NCBI RefSeq assembly: GCF_003113495.2
Contig: NZ_CP084506.1
Location: 2,046,001 to 2,110,000 of the forward strand
DNA: 64,000 nucleotides
From: Edwardsiella tarda ATCC 15947 = NBRC 105688
GTDB lineage: Bacteria; Pseudomonadota; Gammaproteobacteria; Enterobacterales; Enterobacteriaceae
Reading direction: 5' to 3'
Positions 24,721 through 33,434 of this stretch are shown piece by piece. The translations under genes were made by a program, and so were the position numbers. The notes under the pieces were generated by a model. That model saw only the letters and a program-made list of their open reading frames with translations. It ran no database searches and was not told the DNA's origin. Numbering within the stretch: position 1 is the first letter of the stretch; every line of letters starts with the position of its first letter.

Positions 24721-24920
24721 TGCTGCCCCGCCCCTGCTCTACTGACGCCTCACCCCGGTTCACTCGACATACGGTTTACGCAACGTCACCCGACTCAACG
24801 CCCGGGTAGACTCGCCTGTGCGTGCTCCGCAGGGCGGCAACGGCGGGTGAACACTCCGCCGCGACGGGGAGACGGACGCCCCTCCCTAACGCTCGGCTAA
24901 ACGCCGCTCACCGCCACGGT

Positions 24921-25343
24921 TTAGCGCCGTTTCCTTGTTTCATCCACCACCGGCTCGCCATCCTCTTTATTAAACGCCCCCTGCTGCGCCGTGGGCAAAA
25001 TCTCCAACACACGCTCCGAGGGGCGACACAGACGCGCCCCCAGCGGGGTCACCACGATCGGCCGGTTAATCAGGATGGGATGGCTTAACATCGCGTCGAT
25101 CAGTTGCGCGTCGCTCAGTCGTTCGTCCGCCAAGCCTAAGGTCTCGTAGGGCTCGACATTCTGGCGTAGCAACGCCCGTACCGAGATCCCCAGCGCGGCG
25201 ATCAAGCCGAGCAACTCCGCGCGCGACGGCGGCGTCTCCAGGTAGTGGATGATGGTCGGTTCCACGCCACTGTTGCGGATCATCGCTAAGGTGTTGCGCG
25301 AGGTGCCGCAGGCCGGGTTGTGATAAATCGTAATCGTATTCAT
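24921..25343 (-). CDS. arsC: Arsenate reductase, glutaredoxin-coupled (ArsC)
   Basis: ArsC reduces arsenate to arsenite using glutathione and glutaredoxin. The 140-residue protein matches the plasmid R773/E. coli ArsC type rather than the YfgD type. It has HNPACGTSRNT with the catalytic Cys12, HYLETPP, and the HPILINRPIVVTPLG block containing a substrate-binding arginine. GAGAGGG is the ribosome binding site. No arsR regulator or arsB efflux gene is adjacent, so arsenite export must be encoded elsewhere. It sits in accessory DNA between gapA and the fimbrial operon; an approx. 200-base gap on its upstream side holds no gene. Confidence 0.95.
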   Translation of the reverse strand: MNTITIYHNPACGTSRNTLAMIRNSGVEPTIIHYLETPPSRAELLGLIAALGISVRALLRQNVEPYETLGLADERLSDAQLIDAMLSHPILINRPIVVTPLGARLCRPSERVLEILPTAQQGAFNKEDGEPVVDETRKRR

Positions 25344-25559
25344 AGCCCTCTCTCATGACCAGGTCAGGGGCGTCATCGCCTCATCGCGTTTATTCAGATA
25401 AATAGTCCATAGGGATCATTACCTATGTTTAGCATGATAGGAGGCCTTAACACCAGCGAGCAATGGGGCGACACGCTGGCGCTAAGGGGACCGAGCGGCA
25501 CGCGCCATGCCGCAGCGGCCAGGCCGAGGCCTGATGTGGGCCCTGCCCGACGACCTGGC

Positions 25560-26711
25560 TCAAAGATAGGTGACCGTGTAGGTCAATTGGGCGCGGATTT
25601 TACCCCCCTTCAGCGCCGCCCCGGTGCGGATCAGGCGGGCAGCCAAGCGATAAACGAAATCGGTGGAGTCATAGGCGCCGACGGGGGGAGAGGGCTCGGC
25701 AACCAACTCGGCCACCCCGTTAGCTAACGCCAGAGGCTGATAGCTGCCGCTACCATTATTCCACCCTAATTGAATAGCGAGACCGATGGCAGCATCCTCC
25801 CCCTGTTCAATAGCGATCACGCCGTTGTTGCTATCCAGCACCGCAGTCTGTGGCGACAGAGTCAGCTTCACACGGCTAGGCGTGGTGTGCACATCCCTCA
25901 CCTCGGCGAGTATCGCGTTAGGATCTGACGCCGTCGATTCGGCATAGTCGCCATTATTACGGTGGCTACGGGTGAAGGCGCTGCATCGATGCAGCGTCAC
26001 CGGTGCCGCCAGCCACTCGCTGGTCGCGCCGAGCGCCGGGAAGTCGGCCCCTAATTGCTTGGGAAAGGTATAGGTGTAGCGGTCATTCGCCACCTGGCAG
26101 GTCCCGGCGTGGATCATCAGGCGCATGTCGCCAATAAACTCGATCTCGGTTACCGGACTCCAGTCATCCGCCCCTCCGGTGGCGGCCTCGATGATCACCA
26201 TCGGCAGGTTACTACCACTGAAGCTTCCCCCCACGGGAACCGGGCCAGTCTTAATAAACTCGACGATGAACGACGTCTCCTCCGGCCCAATCGTGCTCGG
26301 ATTGTCTCTGGGGTAGGTGATCGTATAGTGGTTGCTCAACGATCCGAATATATCTCCCCTCATAGTGCGGAAGCGGACGCCTACCCCTGCGACGGGTGAC
26401 GCAATGAACTCCCCGTTGACGGACCAGTTCTTCTCATCCACCCGGAAGTTAACTTGCATACGACCGCTATGAACGCTGTCGGTGTTACAGCTTATGCTAT
26501 AGGGTAAGTCGCCATGCACTAACTGCCGATAGAACACCGTGCCGATCGGTGCATCCTCCCCGATGCTATAGTCTCCCCAGCCTAACGGCACCACGCGATG
26601 GTAGCCTCCCCCATAGCAAGACGCCCTAAGCGCTGGCGCCAGGCCCAGGAGCACCAACACCAACAGCAGGCGTGCCCAAAGCGCCAAGCGGGGTATGCGT
26701 TGTCGTCTCAT
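25560..26711 (-). CDS. Putative fimbrial tip adhesin/minor subunit
   Basis: This 383-residue secreted protein ends the fimbrial operon; its ATG overlaps the usher stop (ATGA). A signal peptide of about 30 residues precedes SCYGGGY. The length suggests two domains. The N-terminal ~200 residues would be the receptor-binding lectin-like part. The C-terminal part, with cysteines in HAGTCQV and LHRCSAF and ending in KIRAQLTYTVTYL, looks like a pilin domain for donor-strand exchange. No adhesin family is recognisable by eye, so the tip role is inferred from position, size and C-terminal pilin pattern. Confidence 0.7.
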   Translation of the reverse strand: MRRQRIPRLALWARLLLVLVLLGLAPALRASCYGGGYHRVVPLGWGDYSIGEDAPIGTVFYRQLVHGDLPYSISCNTDSVHSGRMQVNFRVDEKNWSVNGEFIASPVAGVGVRFRTMRGDIFGSLSNHYTITYPRDNPSTIGPEETSFIVEFIKTGPVPVGGSFSGSNLPMVIIEAATGGADDWSPVTEIEFIGDMRLMIHAGTCQVANDRYTYTFPKQLGADFPALGATSEWLAAPVTLHRCSAFTRSHRNNGDYAESTASDPNAILAEVRDVHTTPSRVKLTLSPQTAVLDSNNGVIAIEQGEDAAIGLAIQLGWNNGSGSYQPLALANGVAELVAEPSPPVGAYDSTDFVYRLAARLIRTGAALKGGKIRAQLTYTVTYL

Positions 26712-29700
26712 TGTGACCTCTCACAGCGGTAATGCTGACGTTGCGGCGTACTCGACTCAAGATCCTCGATCCGGTAAGGCAGCACGCAGGTACGCGCCTT
26801 GCCCTCCTCGCTCCAGGTCGCCAATAACTGCCCCTGAGTCTCGGTGACACGGGCATATAACAAGCCACCCTGCCCAACGATCCCCATGTTATTGCCCGCC
26901 TCATCGGTGATGGTACTGCCGAAGGGCAACCCCTGCTCCGCCGATGAGGGCAGCAGTAGCAACGCATAGCCATGCCGGGTGGCAAAGTCGGCCAGTACCA
27001 CCGCGCCGGCACGTGGCACCACACTCTGCATGGTCGAATCCATTTCCACATTCTCCACTCGGGTCGGGTCGAGGGTGACCAGGTTGCGTTGATAGACCGA
27101 GGAGAGCGGGATCGCCGCATTGCCCCAATAATCCAGTTGTAACCCTGGATAGCTGGTCACCTCGGCGCCTGCCGCCCCCGGTGCCGACGCCACGATATAG
27201 CCGTCGCTGCTATAAGGGGTAAAGGTCACCCCTCGCGGATGAGCCACCAACGCCCCGTTGAGCCCGGCGGATACGGTGCGGGTCTCGCTGCCAATGCTGG
27301 CGTTAGCCGACAGGCTGGTCCAGGGGGCGGTGTACTGGCCGTTGAGACTGCCCGTGGTGCCGCTGTAGTCGTTATGATCCACGCCGACGTTCCAGCTCAT
27401 CTGCTGGCGCTCGCCCAACGAGCCCGCTAACGACAGCTGCTCGCCGTAATGCCCCTCGCCATCGCGTGAGAAACCACTGCTCAGGCTTAACGGGTGCTGA
27501 TCGCCGAGGGCCACGCTGAAAGAGAGATAGAGATTGCTATCTTGTAAGCCATTCATCATCCGACTGCGCGAGGCGCTGAGCGACCAATTGACTCGCCGCC
27601 AGCCGCTCGACCAACCGAGCTGATACTGGAGATCGGCCCCGGTGCGGTGCCACCAGTGGCGCGCCAAGGCGCTGGCGGAGAGTTGCCCCCAGCCCGTCGG
27701 CAGATCTTGGCTCAGCGAGAGGCTAAAGCGACTCTTTTCGCGCCAGAGATAGACGGGATCGATGCCCACGCCACCATACCAATCGCGATAATCCATCGCC
27801 TGATCGAAGTCCAGGTAGTTCTGGGTAGAGAAGCGGTAGGCCGCCAAGGCGATGTAACTCCCGGTTTGGCGCAGAAACTTATTATAAGTGACACGGTAAC
27901 TTTGCCCGGTCAGCTCCTGGCTGCCGGTATGCGCATCCGAGTGGGTAACGTCGAACGCCCAAGCCCCGATCGGCGTGGAGAGCGCGCCTCCGCCGAGGAA
28001 GGCGCGATACCCCTCGCTCAGTTGCGTACCGCCGTACAGCGTCAGCAGGTTGCTAATCCCCTGCTGCCAGGTAAGCAGGTAGAGGGGCTGATCGCTGTGT
28101 TTCTGCGCGGTGCGGTAGCGGCCCGCCACCAGCTCGTAACGGAAGGCGCCGGGACGGAGCAACTCGGCTACCGCCGCATACGGCACCAGGCTGGTGCTCT
28201 CGCGCCCATCGGCCTCGCGCACCGTCACCTCCAGATCGCCGCCGTAGCCCATCGGGTAGAGATCGTCGATGACGAACTCGCCCGCCGGGACGCTGGTTTC
28301 ATAGATCAGGTTACCGTTCTGGCGCACCGTCACGCGCGCATTACCGCGCGCAATGCCCCGGATCTCCGGCGCATAGTCGCGGCGCGAGGCGGGCAACATC
28401 TGCTCATCGCTGACCAACGACACCCCGGTGTAGCCGAGGGTGTCGAAGAGCCGCCCCGAGGTGTAACCTTCGCCGACGAGCAGCCGCCCCCCCAGGGCGC
28501 CGATGTCGTGCTGGAGCCAAGTATTCAGGCTCTGATACTCGCTACCGCTGCCCGACTGGCGATTCAGCGAACCGTTGTGACGCAAATACCAACCGGCAAT
28601 GTTGAAGCCGCTGTTGATGCCTAGATACTGCGAGTTGTAGCTCATCCCATTGTTATGGGCGTAGTAGCTATTGAACGCGTAACCCAAGAAGGCGGCGGTG
28701 CTGCCATCCTGCCACAACGCGGGCGGGACATAGCCTCGGGCGCTGTGTTGCACATACTTCTGGGCAATATGGAGGGTGAGGCGTTGGCGGCCGGCATCGA
28801 ATTCCGCCGTCGCCGCCGGGATGGCTAAACTTACGGGGGTGCAGTCCGCCTCGGCCAACGCGTCGGCGTCGATCGCCTCGTCGGTCAGGTTGAGTTTACG
28901 CAGCAGCGCCGGGCTAAGGCAGATGTTAACCTCACCCCCCTCCTCCCCACGGCGCAGGATGACGCTCTCGCGCCCCACCTGCTCATCGTTGAGGTAAATA
29001 TCCGCCAGCCATTCGCCTGGCATCAGCCCACTCTCTTGATCGAACTGGCTGAGATCGGCGTTACCGGCATAGTACTGAAGAAAGGCCGTATTAAAGGCCA
29101 GATGCCCCCGGCGGCCAGCCGGATTGGCGGCCAACGCCGTGCCGCTATCGCCGTCAGCCGCCGAGGCGGAGGCTCGCGACGCCCCAGATTCCGCCGGATT
29201 GGCCGCCAGCGCCAGGCCACTCTCGCCGCCCGCCGCCGAGGTGGAGGCACGCGACGCCCCAGATTCCGCCGAGTTGGCCGCCAGCGCCAGGCCACTCTCG
29301 CCATCAGCCGCCGAGGCGGAGGCTCGCGACGCCCCAGATTCCGCCGGGTTGGCCGCCAGCGCCAGGCCACTCTCGCCGTCAGCCGCCGAGGCGGAGGCAC
29401 GCGACGCCCCAGATTTCGCCGGGTTGGCCGCCAGCGCCAGGCCACTCTCGCCGCCCGCCGCCGAGGCGGAGGCACGCGACGCCCCAGACTCTGCCGGGTT
29501 GGCCGCCAGCGCCAGGCCACTCTCGCCGCCCGCCGAGAATAATGACGCGGATGAGCGGGCAGACGCCAAGGCCATCGGTGGCGCCTCTTCCGCAGGCAAC
29601 GTCTGAGCCCGAGCGCGGGCCCACTCCGCGACCTCTGCGTGAGCAACACCGAGGCTGACTAACGGCAACAGGCAGCCCGTCGCCCATGGCCATAGCCAAT

Positions 29701-29725
29701 AAGCTAATACTTTTGCCTTGTGCAT
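26708..29725 (-). CDS. Outer-membrane fimbrial usher with N-terminal tandem repeats
   Basis: This is a FimD/PapC-family usher, the outer-membrane pore that polymerises chaperone-subunit complexes. The signal peptide (about residues 1-30) is followed by an unusual stretch of 25-residue repeats (residues 66-203) rich in Ala, Ser and Gly. Only then comes the canonical N-terminal domain, starting FNTAFLQYY near residue 209. The beta-barrel, with family blocks such as YAPEIRGIARGNARVTVRQNG, and the C-terminal domains follow. Total length is 1005 residues against roughly 830-880 for typical ushers; the repeats account for the excess. Frame and remaining sequence are intact. It is fourth in a five-gene operon. 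Confidence 0.95.
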   Translation of the reverse strand: MHKAKVLAYWLWPWATGCLLPLVSLGVAHAEVAEWARARAQTLPAEEAPPMALASARSSASLFSAGGESGLALAANPAESGASRASASAAGGESGLALAANPAKSGASRASASAADGESGLALAANPAESGASRASASAADGESGLALAANSAESGASRASTSAAGGESGLALAANPAESGASRASASAADGDSGTALAANPAGRRGHLAFNTAFLQYYAGNADLSQFDQESGLMPGEWLADIYLNDEQVGRESVILRRGEEGGEVNICLSPALLRKLNLTDEAIDADALAEADCTPVSLAIPAATAEFDAGRQRLTLHIAQKYVQHSARGYVPPALWQDGSTAAFLGYAFNSYYAHNNGMSYNSQYLGINSGFNIAGWYLRHNGSLNRQSGSGSEYQSLNTWLQHDIGALGGRLLVGEGYTSGRLFDTLGYTGVSLVSDEQMLPASRRDYAPEIRGIARGNARVTVRQNGNLIYETSVPAGEFVIDDLYPMGYGGDLEVTVREADGRESTSLVPYAAVAELLRPGAFRYELVAGRYRTAQKHSDQPLYLLTWQQGISNLLTLYGGTQLSEGYRAFLGGGALSTPIGAWAFDVTHSDAHTGSQELTGQSYRVTYNKFLRQTGSYIALAAYRFSTQNYLDFDQAMDYRDWYGGVGIDPVYLWREKSRFSLSLSQDLPTGWGQLSASALARHWWHRTGADLQYQLGWSSGWRRVNWSLSASRSRMMNGLQDSNLYLSFSVALGDQHPLSLSSGFSRDGEGHYGEQLSLAGSLGERQQMSWNVGVDHNDYSGTTGSLNGQYTAPWTSLSANASIGSETRTVSAGLNGALVAHPRGVTFTPYSSDGYIVASAPGAAGAEVTSYPGLQLDYWGNAAIPLSSVYQRNLVTLDPTRVENVEMDSTMQSVVPRAGAVVLADFATRHGYALLLLPSSAEQGLPFGSTITDEAGNNMGIVGQGGLLYARVTETQGQLLATWSEEGKARTCVLPYRIEDLESSTPQRQHYRCERSQ
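29117..29530 (-). repeat. 75-bp coding tandem repeat, five full copies plus one partial
   Basis: The segment GCCAGGCCAC recurs at 29211, 29286, 29361, 29436 and 29511, exactly 75 bases apart. Each unit encodes 25 residues with the core SGLALAANPAESGASRASAS. Five full copies span 29156-29530. A sixth, degenerate part-copy (DGDSGTALAANPA) joins the usher N-terminal domain. Copies differ at few positions (Glu/Lys, Pro/Ser, Gly/Asp), a pattern that implies recent expansion. Unit length is a multiple of three, so copy-number change keeps the frame. Confidence 0.97.
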
Positions 29726-29744
29726 GTTTTGCCTCGATCAGCGA

Positions 29745-30464
29745 CTACTGATGTTGGATCGGTTGACTATTGAAAGCCCCGTAGTCGTTCACGTAACCCA
29801 CTACCACCTTCTCCTGGCCGTTGAGCGTACGCCCGGCGGGTAGGTCAAGGGAGAACTCGCCATAGGGCGACACCATATCCGCTTCCAACGTTAGGCTCTT
29901 TGGGCCTCCACTGATCGAAACCCGGGTCAGTGAGACAAAATAGGGGGTGGGATTGTGCAGCGTCAGCGTGTTCCCCGCGCTACGCCAGCGTAGTTGCCGC
30001 ACCGCCTTGTTAGCCTGCTCGGCATTCAACCCTGCCGGGCGGTAAAACAGCTTGATACGGGAACGAAAGGCAAGCTGGAGCTGCAACTCATTACCGCCCT
30101 TATCCGACTCCGGCGGGATCTCCAGCACATTCAGCCACCAGACACTCTCCCGATCCGCTGGCGGCGTCTGGGTCGCGATGAAGGCCAGGCGCAACGTCTG
30201 CCCGCCCCCCTCTCGCAGACGCGCCAACGGTGGGGTTAAGGCGAACGGCGCCGACGCCTTCTCCGGTAACGTATCGGGATCACCATCGTCCAGCCAGGAT
30301 TGAACCAACACCGGGTACTTGCCGCTGTTGGTCAGTTGCACGCTCACATCACGGGCATCGGCGTTATAGATCACCCGGGTACCATTGATCTGCACGCTGG
30401 CGTGGGCTGATGACAGCAACGCCCAGAGTACGGCTAGAGTGGTAAAACAACGTATCACGCTCAT
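29745..30464 (-). CDS. Periplasmic fimbrial chaperone
   Basis: This 239-residue PapD-like chaperone folds pilin subunits by donor-strand complementation. A signal peptide ends near SSAHA. The first immunoglobulin-like domain contains the G1-strand alternating pattern around LQLQLAFRSRIKLFYRPAGL, including the basic residue that anchors the subunit C-terminus. The conserved early arginine in INGTRVIYNADARDVSVQL is present. It lies 19 bases upstream of the usher and 26 bases after the second pilin gene, clearly in one operon. Confidence 0.93.
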   Translation of the reverse strand: MSVIRCFTTLAVLWALLSSAHASVQINGTRVIYNADARDVSVQLTNSGKYPVLVQSWLDDGDPDTLPEKASAPFALTPPLARLREGGGQTLRLAFIATQTPPADRESVWWLNVLEIPPESDKGGNELQLQLAFRSRIKLFYRPAGLNAEQANKAVRQLRWRSAGNTLTLHNPTPYFVSLTRVSISGGPKSLTLEADMVSPYGEFSLDLPAGRTLNGQEKVVVGYVNDYGAFNSQPIQHQ

Positions 30465-30490
30465 AGTCAGTCCTCAGCCCCGCCAAGGGA

Positions 30491-31162
30491 TTACTGATAA
30501 ACCAGGGTGTAGGTGGCTAACGACTCGACGAGCCCTGCAGCGGCGGCACCGGTCGCGTAGTAGCGCACGGCATAGGGCAGCACCGCATAGCCGCTGTTCA
30601 GGCTGGTGACATAACCACCACTAATCTGGTCACCATTGCCGATATTGATCTTTTGGAAGTGCTGCGAACCATCTAGCAGTTCCAGCTCGACGCGTTGCGC
30701 CCCAGCCCCGTGATCGTCTGTCGCCGTCTGTGCCTCGCGCGCGTTTTTCAACCGCCCTGTCTGGCTGTTAACGAAGGGCCCCCCCGAGAAGAAAGCCTTA
30801 ACCGACGACCCGGCCTCGTCCGCACTCCCCCCCTCGGGGGCGACCCCATTACAGCCCCAGACGATAATATGGAAGGTGGTCTGCCCGGCGGTCTTGCCGC
30901 TGGCGTTCAACTCGGTGATCGGGATGGTAGGCAGGGTCACCTGGCTATAATTCTCATACAGGCTACCTTCCGCACCGATGGTGCCGGATGGCACACCGAT
31001 GTCATCACCCGCCACCGCCGCCTGACAACTGGTGGACACCAACTCCCCGGTGAAATAGATCAATCCCCCGGTCGCCACCGCGTTCGCCGGTTGCGCCACG
31101 GAGAACAGGCTGGCTACCGTCGCTGCCGCCACAATCCCTTTTTTAACATTAACGACTTTCAT
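30491..31162 (-). CDS. Fimbrial subunit (pilin), second gene
   Basis: This 223-residue secreted pilin-like protein has a signal peptide (to about ANA) and a disulfide-type cysteine pair (STSCQAAV and VWGCNG). The C-terminal pattern AVRYYATG...LATYTLVYQ has the penultimate tyrosine typical of chaperone-usher subunits. It resembles the upstream subunit in layout (GLIYFTGEL versus GLVRFQGKL), so the two are probably diverged duplicates. AAGGAGAG is the ribosome binding site. Which of the two is the major shaft subunit cannot be told from sequence. Confidence 0.88.
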   Translation of the reverse strand: MKVVNVKKGIVAAATVASLFSVAQPANAVATGGLIYFTGELVSTSCQAAVAGDDIGVPSGTIGAEGSLYENYSQVTLPTIPITELNASGKTAGQTTFHIIVWGCNGVAPEGGSADEAGSSVKAFFSGGPFVNSQTGRLKNAREAQTATDDHGAGAQRVELELLDGSQHFQKINIGNGDQISGGYVTSLNSGYAVLPYAVRYYATGAAAAGLVESLATYTLVYQ

Positions 31163-31210
31163 TATTCTCTCCTTGGATGACGATGAAACTACTCAGTGTG
31201 ATTACGAGGG

Positions 31211-31852
31211 TTACTGATAAATGATATTGAAGGTAGCGATAGTATTAACCGTACCAGGCGTCGCCTGCCCGGTGGCGTAATAGCGCGCGCCATAGGGCAA
31301 GATATAGACATTGCCGCCCGCTTTCCCTGAATTCATGGTCGGATCGGGGACGTAGACTAAATCACTCCTCGTGTAAAACTTGCCATTTTCAATCTGGCTA
31401 TTATCGCCAATGGGGACCGGCTGCCAGTTGTTTCCGCCACTCAACAACTGCACCTGTACGTTTCGCGCCGTCCCTCCGTTGATCAGATTGCCGGAGCGGG
31501 TATCGGTAAAGGGGTTACTGGTGAAGTAGGCCTTCAAACTCTCCGGGAGGTTTGGTGTACAGCGGATTAAGCGCAGGTTAAATTTCACCTCGCCCGCCGT
31601 CTTACCCGGCTCGTTCAGGCTTGACGTCGGCACCTTAGGCAAGGGGATGGTGGCGACGCTCATCGGCTGGCCATAGACATTCATCTCCGTCGAAGCGCTG
31701 CGCTCCGTGCTCCAGTCGAGGAGATCCACGCCGCAGGTCGTATTCGACAGCTTCCCTTGAAAGCGCACAAGCCCCGAATTATCGGCAAAGGATTGCGGCA
31801 CAACCCAAAACATCGACACCAAGATTCCAGCACCTATCCAAACTGGCTTCAT
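31211..31852 (-). CDS. Fimbrial subunit (pilin), first gene of operon
   Basis: This 213-residue pilin has a signal peptide ending near SFA, the N-terminal extension DNSGLVRFQGKL, cysteines in NTTCGVDL and IRCTPN, and the C-terminal GARYYATG...IATFNIIYQ. As the promoter-proximal gene with a strong AAGGAG site, it is a likely major subunit (inference). The gap to the second pilin gene is 48 bases. The operon order pilin-pilin-chaperone-usher-adhesin is a standard chaperone-usher layout, and no recombinase or regulator gene is present. Confidence 0.88.
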   Translation of the reverse strand: MKPVWIGAGILVSMFWVVPQSFADNSGLVRFQGKLSNTTCGVDLLDWSTERSASTEMNVYGQPMSVATIPLPKVPTSSLNEPGKTAGEVKFNLRLIRCTPNLPESLKAYFTSNPFTDTRSGNLINGGTARNVQVQLLSGGNNWQPVPIGDNSQIENGKFYTRSDLVYVPDPTMNSGKAGGNVYILPYGARYYATGQATPGTVNTIATFNIIYQ

Positions 31853-32220
31853 TTCATGACTCCTTTCTTTAGCGAGTTAATAAGCTGTACCATCAATGAC
31901 ATCAAAGCTATTTATTATTACGGGGAATAAAGACATTAAGGAGACATTATTATATTAATATTGTCATTTTTCGGCATTGTATTTCAGCAAAAACTTAGGT
32001 GCAATACTTTTACTTTACACTTTCACAATTATTTAAATCACTATAAAGGATGAAATCCATCTTAATAATAATTGATTTTTATTTTATGCATTGCACCTGA
32101 TGAATATCGCAATTTAAATAAGATGAATTGTTTTATAATATCTGCGAATGATTAAAGCCTCGGTGAGATAAGTATTAAAATCGGGAGGGTGACATCATCA
32201 TGTCATCTTTATTGTTCAAT
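31853..32220. promoter_or_regulatory. AT-rich fimbrial operon control region
   Basis: This stretch is far richer in A and T than its surroundings, with runs such as TATTATTATATTAATATT, and has no open frame. It is the natural place for the fimbrial promoter and for H-NS binding (inference). An inverted repeat, TTAGGTGCAAT (31995-32005) and ATTGCACCTGA (32090-32100), matching at 10 of 11 positions, brackets 84 bases within it. Confidence 0.6.
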
Positions 32221-32567
32221 CATCATCGCAGGGGGCATCCGCACACGCTGACCTCGCCGCATTACCTCCATCGACTCGCCCCACTCACCTCATCGTGAGC
32301 CTATTTCGCACGCTGGCCGCCACCGGATAAACCGGCCCAAGGTGGCAGATGGCGCGGCGAGGAAGGTGGGCACGAAAACCGGCGCTCGCAGGTGCCCCCT
32401 GCCCGTATCGCCCGCCAGCATGGCCCGGCGCACGCTCAGCGCCAGGTATCCCGGGCAAGCGGCCGCTACACGCCGCGGCACGTTACTGCCCCCCTTTGCC
32501 TTACCCGATTAACGCTAGAGTGGAGAAGGCGTGAAAAGCGCAGAGGGAAAATCGCTTGGCTCGCGAT
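32221..32567. other. GC-rich gene-free stretch
   Basis: About 350 bases lie between the AT-rich fimbrial control region and the Nudix gene end. Short open frames on both strands have no ribosome binding site and no recognisable product. I see nothing functional here. Confidence 0.5.
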
Positions 32568-32984
32568 TTAATCAATCAGCCCCTGCGCGTTTAACGCCGC
32601 CAATATTTTTGCCGAGACCAATGAGCAACGCGCCCGATCGGCATAAGTGAGCCAGGCGATATGTTCGATTTCGGCATTGGCGGCGAGCTCTCCGCTAAAT
32701 TCGCCGCGAAAACAGTGTATCTTTACCCTTACACCGGCGGGCTTCCCGTCGGCCTGTCCACGAAACTCCCCCAGAGAGACGATGCTGTCCGCTAGCAAAT
32801 CGACGGAGAGCTCTTCTTTAATCTCACGAATGAGCGCGGCCTGATCGCTTTCGCCCGCCTCCCGCTTACCACCGGGAATATAGTAGGTCGCTTTATGGTA
32901 TGAGCGCGCCATCAGGATCTTTTTATCCTGAATATAAACCCAGCCTAATTTATCAATCTCTTTCGCTACAGCATGATTATTCAC
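32568..32984 (-). CDS. Nudix hydrolase
   Basis: This 138-residue protein has a full Nudix box, PGGKREAGESDQAALIREIKEELSVD, so it should hydrolyse a nucleoside diphosphate derivative; the substrate is unknown. I place the start at GTG 32984 (VNNHAVAKEIDKLGWVYIQDKK) because GAGGGG lies about 8 bases upstream and Nudix proteins of this type begin similarly. The frame stays open a further 125 codons upstream through an 8-bp microsatellite, but that extension has no domain and only a TTG start. It lies in accessory DNA, divergent from yeaD. Confidence 0.85.
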   Translation of the reverse strand: MNNHAVAKEIDKLGWVYIQDKKILMARSYHKATYYIPGGKREAGESDQAALIREIKEELSVDLLADSIVSLGEFRGQADGKPAGVRVKIHCFRGEFSGELAANAEIEHIAWLTYADRARCSLVSAKILAALNAQGLID

Positions 32985-33434
32985 TTGGCCGACCCCTCGA
33001 TAGTAACCCGTTATCTCTGCACGCGATGCCACGCGTGACGCGTCATATTTCCAGTGATGCCTCTCCCCCTCGGGGATAGCGGGGCCGCCTTGCTGAGCTG
33101 AGCGCCCAGGGCGCGCGAGCGGCGGCACCCCGCCACCGTGGCGAGGGAGATAGCATACACGGGATAAGGCGGCCATGGCAGCCAGCGGCATGCCGCGCGC
33201 CTGCGAGCCGATGATGGCGCACCTCACCATGGCGGGCTCAGATGAGGTCTCCGGCGAACAGAGTGACAGAGTGACAGAGTGACAGAGTGACAGAGTGACA
33301 GAGTGACAGAGTGACAGAGTGACAGATGGGATCACGCTCGCGTCAGAAAGGCAACGCAATTGAGGCGCGGCGACGAAGGTGGGATAATCGGCCGACTTCC
33401 GTCTACTGTACCGCTTTTATCAAGGAGCCGTTCC
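32985..33434. other. Nudix-yeaD intergenic region
   Basis: These 450 bases separate the divergent Nudix and yeaD genes. The notable feature is the octamer microsatellite at 33261-33324, about 110 bases upstream of the yeaD start. No clear promoter or gene is visible in the remainder. Confidence 0.5.
33261..33324. repeat. Octanucleotide microsatellite, eight perfect copies
   Basis: GAGTGACA is repeated eight times without a mismatch, ending in GATGGG. Such perfect short-unit arrays are prone to slipped-strand changes. The unit is not a multiple of three. On the minus strand it reads in frame with the Nudix gene (repeating SVTLSLCH), and on the plus strand it lies in the presumed yeaD promoter area. 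Confidence 0.97.

Follow-up and report, generated by a model that had tools for sequence, protein, structure and literature searches.

An outer-membrane usher of Edwardsiella tarda with an in-frame repeat arm, variable between two alleles, in front of its chaperone-recruiting tail

The window analysed here, the whole stretch of 64,000 nucleotides from Edwardsiella tarda ATCC 15947 (positions 2,046,001 to 2,110,000 of contig NZ_CP084506.1), contains a fimbrial operon whose usher carries a long arm, built largely of 25-residue tandem repeats, before its N-terminal domain (NTD). Between two otherwise near-identical alleles, the two that were compared, the array is, as read from the protein sequences, variable in both the number and the order of its units, in frame. 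Alignment to solved ushers indicates that the tail that recruits chaperone-subunit complexes is kept in this protein but is internal to the chain. Outside the arm, the protein is an ordinary classical FimD-like usher.

The usher gene and its operon

The usher is encoded by the fourth of five genes, which follow one another on the minus strand in the order pilin, pilin, chaperone, usher, tip adhesin (Table 1). Its frame is open over 1005 codons, and the start ATG is preceded by GAGG at a six-base spacing. The Pfam domains are those of a classical usher and appear in the classical order, PapC_N, Usher and PapC_C, with scores of 128.4, 512.1 and 53.7 bits, respectively, against cut-offs of about 27 bits. 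The usher matches the solved ushers FimD (1.2e-129) and PapC (2.9e-66) by sequence and has in common with both the PapC_N, barrel/plug and PapC_C regions, the tail phenylalanine, and an operon with a chaperone, pilins and a tip adhesin. The genes encoded alongside, for a PapD-type chaperone, pilins and an adhesin, form the context of a classical usher; in the tip adhesin, an MrkD-like receptor-binding domain scores below the cut-off (22.7 against 27 bits). Fifteen NCBIfam models match the usher, all of them below their own cut-offs (548.8 against 830 bits for the best), so that no named fimbria type, such as FimD, LpfC or StdB, can be assigned.

The genome around the window comprises 3.80 Mb in four contigs. 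The operon lies, together with an arsC-like gene and a Nudix-like gene, in a block of about 8.6 kb (24729-33320) between two genes that we take, from their translations, to be gapA and yeaD. The yeaD protein is 95% identical in E. hoshinae, 85% in E. piscicida and 84% in E. ictaluri, and the gaps between the matched ends of gapA and yeaD in these species are short (427, 58 and 68 bases, respectively); the block is therefore missing at this site in all three. In four other Edwardsiella genomes, no close copy of the usher was found (long matches reach at most 34%, shorter ones up to 38%) and none of the chaperone (43% at best).

The region upstream of the operon (31853-32250) has a G+C content of 31.7%, compared to 58.8% for the window. 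A perfect 8-bp repeat, ACAGAGTG, in 8.6 copies (33258-33326), precedes the probable yeaD start by about 105 bases; a unit of 8 bp would shift the frame if translated, or change the spacing if located upstream of a promoter. The stretch matching this site holds a 6-bp repeat, ACAGAC, in E. hoshinae (L042) and no repeat in E. piscicida.

Table 1. Features of the fimbrial operon and of the usher, in positions of the window
Feature	Position	Strand	Basis
Pilin gene, 213 aa, operon start	31211..31852	-	FimA/Fimbrial families
Pilin gene, 223 aa	30491..31162	-	FimA/Fimbrial families
Periplasmic chaperone gene, 239 aa	29745..30464	-	PapD_N and PapD_C
Outer-membrane usher gene, 1005 aa	26708..29725	-	Pfam PapC_N, Usher, PapC_C, each above cut-off
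Signal peptide, residues 1-30, AHA cleavage motif	29636..29725	-	judged by eye from translation
Linker, non-repeated first part, residues 31-65	29531..29635	-	translation; pLDDT about 31-38
Repeat unit 1, residues 66-90	29456..29530	-	coding register
Repeat unit 2, residues 91-115	29381..29455	-	coding register
Repeat unit 3, residues 116-140	29306..29380	-	coding register
Repeat unit 4, residues 141-165	29231..29305	-	coding register
Repeat unit 5, residues 166-190	29156..29230	-	coding register
Unit 6, partial and diverged, 13 residues 191-203, DGDSGT variant	29117..29155	-	coding register
Chaperone-recruiting tail region (F211 and following)	29030..29101	-	alignment to FimD / PapC chains
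PapC_N domain, residues 211-352	28670..29095	-	Pfam
Usher barrel and plug region, residues 367-914	26984..28627	-	Pfam
PapC_C domain, residues 931-986	26768..26935	-	Pfam
Tip adhesin gene, 383 aa	25560..26711	-	Fimbrial domain above cut-off

The repeat array

Tandem Repeats Finder (TRF) placed an array with a period of 75 at 29118-29535 (5.6 copies, 92% matches, 0 indels, score 682). The best score among 20 random versions of the window, generated from an order-1 Markov model, was 58, and chance is therefore excluded as the origin of the array. In the coding register, the array spans 29117-29530, with five full 25-residue units (residues 66-190) and a partial sixth (residues 191-203), in exact agreement with the five full 75-bp copies and one partial copy described in an earlier note on this DNA. 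The placement of the repeat between the signal peptide and the usher NTD, also proposed there, is borne out by the start of PapC_N at residue 211 and by a signal-peptide-like sequence recognized by eye at residues 1-30, and so is the low-complexity Ala/Ser/Gly composition: the linker (residues 31-206, 176 residues) contains 59 Ala, 32 Ser and 21 Gly. The G+C content of the array is 77.3%, against 62.3% in the part of the gene that follows it.

Among the five full units, 10 of the 75 sites vary, 6 synonymously and 4 non-synonymously. Related to the available sites, this amounts to 6 of 22.9 synonymous and 4 of 52.1 non-synonymous sites (Fisher p = 0.056), and third codon positions hold 6 of the 10 variable sites (p = 0.077). 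The synonymous excess and the third-position bias hint at, although they do not prove, a coding constraint on the repeat protein, and such a constraint would count against full neutrality of the arm. Other frames across the array are open as well, with 168 and 160 codons on the plus strand (29036-29606); we judge these to be a by-product of the repeat, because extra open frames are expected from a unit that is G+C-rich and has a length that is a multiple of three. The same unit length, 75 bp, sets the array apart from phase-variable switches, in which the unit length shifts the frame.

Variation between two alleles

The comparison between strains involves two alleles at the protein level, that of the window and P0001, the sole close relative among the homologues listed. 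The cluster represented by P0001 has 58 members, and the longest contig of P0001 measures 3.64 Mb. This usher has 980 residues compared to 1005, that is, it is shorter by exactly one 25-residue unit, in frame. With a single 25-residue gap, the two proteins differ at a minimum of eight residues, a minimum reached by 18 equally good gap placements; 2 of the 867 residues outside the repeat differ, and 6 of the 113 inside it. The DGDSGT variant occupies the last partial unit in the window usher and the next-to-last unit in P0001. Loss of one unit alone is therefore insufficient to account for the difference, and recombination or conversion between units would explain it.

The in-frame expansion and contraction that had been suggested from the near-identity of the copies is thus seen, in these two alleles only, in the missing unit and in the displaced DGDSGT variant, and the comparison of copy number between strains proposed as a check gives, in this single case, a difference of one unit. 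The possibility that the repeat is an assembly artefact, which would have spoken against the earlier note, is made unlikely by the presence of the array in the second allele, too.

Position of the chaperone-recruiting tail

According to two published studies, chaperone-subunit complexes are recruited by the first 24 residues of FimD, which form a disordered tail, and F3, I16, F18 and F21 of PapC make contact with the chaperone, their mutants being ablated or impaired (PMC11459180; PMC8410936). F211 of the window usher corresponds to residue 4 in the FimD chain; for PapC, the limits of the matched stretch pair it with residue 3. We aligned 44 ushers, namely, the window usher, P0001 and 42 picked from the best 120 of 433 homologues: F211 is invariant in this set, and F215, L216, D224, L225 and F228 are nearly so. 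The position of the tail phenylalanine is preceded by three residues in mature FimD and two in PapC, compared to 180 after the inferred cleavage site in the window usher. Thus, the motif of a classical usher is present, but not at or near the mature N-terminus. We take the internal position of the tail as the mark of a variant whose domain features still place it among the ushers.

Predicted structure of the arm

AlphaFold2 was run on the 44-row alignment. The pLDDT was below 50 at residues 1-49 and 51-232 and at least 70 for 693 of the 1005 residues; over residues 31-210, its ten-residue mean was 24-38. In the linker, a short helix was predicted at residues 31-38 and no secondary structure from residue 39 to 212. 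The low pLDDT of the linker may partly reflect a lack of relatives, because P0001 alone covers this region. The charge-hydropathy score of the arm, +0.18, does not class it as disordered, so that an Ala-rich helix is possible. The mean TOP-IDP value is 0.18 in the arm versus 0.06 in the NTD. The earlier note had suggested that the repeat could act as a flexible periplasmic tether. Flexibility is favored by the AlphaFold2 prediction, with its one covering relative, and disagrees with the charge-hydropathy score; the word tether fits poorly, because, once the signal peptide has been cleaved off, the distal end would hang free, with nothing tethered.

Rarity of the arm and other extended ushers

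In a protein-database search with the linker (E up to 10, 7999 candidates scored), P0001 was the sole match. A 225-bp piece of the array, compared with its own genome at E <= 0.001, found only the array itself (40 of 81 first-look candidates scored). The repeat gave one chance-level match (E 0.13, in G004) in four other Edwardsiella genomes and none at E <= 0.001 in 273 other genomes of the class; it was not found in plasmids, and the usher scan of named genomes confirmed no relative.

The position equivalent to F211 was determined, by extrapolating BLAST alignments, in the best 120 of 433 homologues, which are the closest ones and not a random draw. It lies at residue 211 in the window usher, 186 in P0001, and between residues 3 and 66 (median 43) in the other 119, whose identity to the window usher is at most 58%. 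The statement that typical ushers lack such an insert therefore holds for these 119 closest other homologues. The nearest ones, P0002 and P0003 (56% and 57% identity, aligned over 79-80% of the query), and the ushers of Citrobacter, Enterobacter and Salmonella (about 55% identity) are of the same usher type but, at about 833-842 residues, have no such arm before the NTD. The titles and the beginnings of abstracts of open-licence publications on Edwardsiella ushers, fimbriae or repeats, and on N-terminal extensions, tails or repeats of ushers, mention no such arm.

In broader samples, the comparison covered the lengths of open frames. Across the order, 28 of 197 genomes yielded 99 PapC_N places, two of which had an open frame of more than 909 codons, the window usher and that of G039. 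In the family sample, with matches in 33 of 60 genomes, the longest other open frame among the matches listed was 927. For the three further ushers of the genome around the window, the values are 825, 862 and 874. Three candidates with long frames were rejected: from the start codon, G001 (open frame 1009) encodes 828 residues and G005 (918) 877, both without an arm, and in G008 (L023:985-3810; 943) a low-complexity insert lies, by eye, inside the NTD and not before it.

In the usher encoded by the G039 gene (L016:1435-4428), which P0121 matches, a Lys/Ser/Thr-rich extension precedes the NTD. P0121, P0122 and P0123 are 990, 1024 and 980 residues long, with the tail position at residues 195, 229 and 150, respectively; in 116 other relatives of the G039 usher among the best 120 of 865, the tail position is at most 89 (P0189 has no NTD match). 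Within this clade, identity in the extension is 41% (144 aligned residues) and 37% (101 aligned residues), against 81% and 58% for the rest of the proteins. These poorly conserved extensions show that ushers can carry such arms. Like the window usher, P0121-P0123 have a long low-complexity extension (about 100 to 190 residues) before the NTD; unlike it, the extension of P0121 and P0122 is Lys/Ser/Thr-rich, with no tandem unit by eye. None of the three is among the matches of the linker search. From the composition and this search, we infer that the two arms are unrelated and were gained independently; it seems that ushers have acquired a long arm ahead of the NTD on at least two occasions.

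Origin and possible role of the arm

In our assessment, the arm is probably a mostly passive, disordered N-terminal extension in front of the chaperone-recruiting tail, changed in length by recombination. A FimD-like usher would have gained a flexible arm of about 176 residues, mostly 25-residue repeats, at its mature N-terminus; with the signal peptide cleaved, the arm would hang free in the periplasm. The copy number would shift when the near-identical 75-bp units undergo homologous recombination or slippage, and the frame would be kept, 75 being a multiple of three. The recruiting tail, F211 and the residues that follow, would still bind the chaperone although internal in the chain, so that the usher would tolerate changes in length, with piliation affected little or not at all; the arm itself may, somewhat less securely, be largely passive. 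The intact three usher domains and operon partners are consistent with this account. A passive arm is more likely than a functional role, because the arm is missing from the other listed homologues and no phenotype turned up in the literature searched.

A functional role is nevertheless possible by analogy with TolA. A study of domain II of this protein reports that its in-frame periplasmic repeat numbers 8 to 16 copies among 234 isolates of E. coli, that phenotypes vary with the copy number and that contraction depends on RecA (PMC3477136); a further literature search on repeats of this kind brought up none. The usher arm resembles the TolA repeat in that both are in-frame repeats of envelope proteins, lie in a periplasmic stretch and vary between strains; a strain-variable coding repeat as in tolA is indeed what the alleles of 1005 and 980 residues display. 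TolA is, however, a different protein, with the repeat in a helical domain that joins two others, and it is for TolA that the phenotypes were measured (PMC3477136).

Tuning of subunit capture by the arm, as put forward in the earlier note, is possible. In its stronger form, the arm would actively modulate capture via crowding or weak contacts, and the copy number would affect the number of pili or the order of subunits; this seems to us a doubtful but serious alternative. The arm directly precedes the tail whose residues, according to the published studies of PapC and FimD, pilus assembly requires (PMC11459180; PMC8410936), the length of the arm differs between the two alleles, the units show the weak sign of constraint given above (p = 0.056), and there is the precedent of TolA, in which the number of repeats changes the stress tolerance of E. 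coli (PMC3477136). Against this, the literature searched yielded no phenotype, the TolA repeat belongs to a domain linking two others whereas the usher arm appears free at one end, and the 119 other homologues, presumably functional, lack an arm of such length.

It is improbable that the arm serves as a module that binds peptidoglycan, the chaperone or a pilin through one low-affinity site per unit. In favor of this reading, the unit sequence is mostly kept between the two alleles, with few amino-acid changes. However, no Pfam match extends into the repeat at E <= 0.001, the NCBIfam usher models start at residue 195 (one model, within the last partial unit) or later, P0001 is the only relative in the protein search, and no fold is predicted for the arm.

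A true tether, with the N-terminus held in a membrane through lipidation of Cys18 (ATGC) or an uncleaved signal anchor and the repeat length setting the reach of the NTD, is very improbable. A strict lipobox reads [LVI][ASTVI][GAS]C up to the +1 cysteine, and a more permissive PROSITE-type pattern is also in use. The permissive pattern is found at Cys18 in the window usher and P0001 and in only one of 239 other ushers (P0061), and a long hydrophobic stretch is seen by eye at about residues 6 to 27. The strict pattern, however, is absent from the window usher and present in 5 others of the 241 ushers, the signal-peptidase-I motif AHA follows Cys18 at residues 28-30, and many ushers (139 of 241) have a cysteine somewhere in their first 35 residues. 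Typical lipoproteins have no hydrophobic stretch after the lipobox cysteine, whereas the usher sequence remains hydrophobic past Cys18. An extension of this reading, in which the anchored N-terminus and recombination between units would make a heritable length dial, with tether length and piliation varying within one population, is just as hard to credit.

Least probable of all is an artefact or a broken gene (misassembly, a wrong start that leaves the repeat untranslated, or a decaying usher): tandem arrays are prone to miscounted copy numbers in assembly, but P0001 carries the array, the frame is open throughout with all three domains above their cut-offs, and the region from the end of the last full unit to the tail offers a single start codon, TTG at codon 198, which, by eye, is followed by no signal peptide.

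To return to the passive arm and what it may mean, the first residues of ushers are the described landing site for chaperone-subunit complexes. If this usher does work despite the roughly 180 residues ahead of that site, it would show that the chain end need not be free. The natural length series of the arm would offer a handle on the effects of reach and crowding at the capture site, and, even if passive, the arm would be useful for following how in-frame repeats turn over in a gene of the cell envelope.
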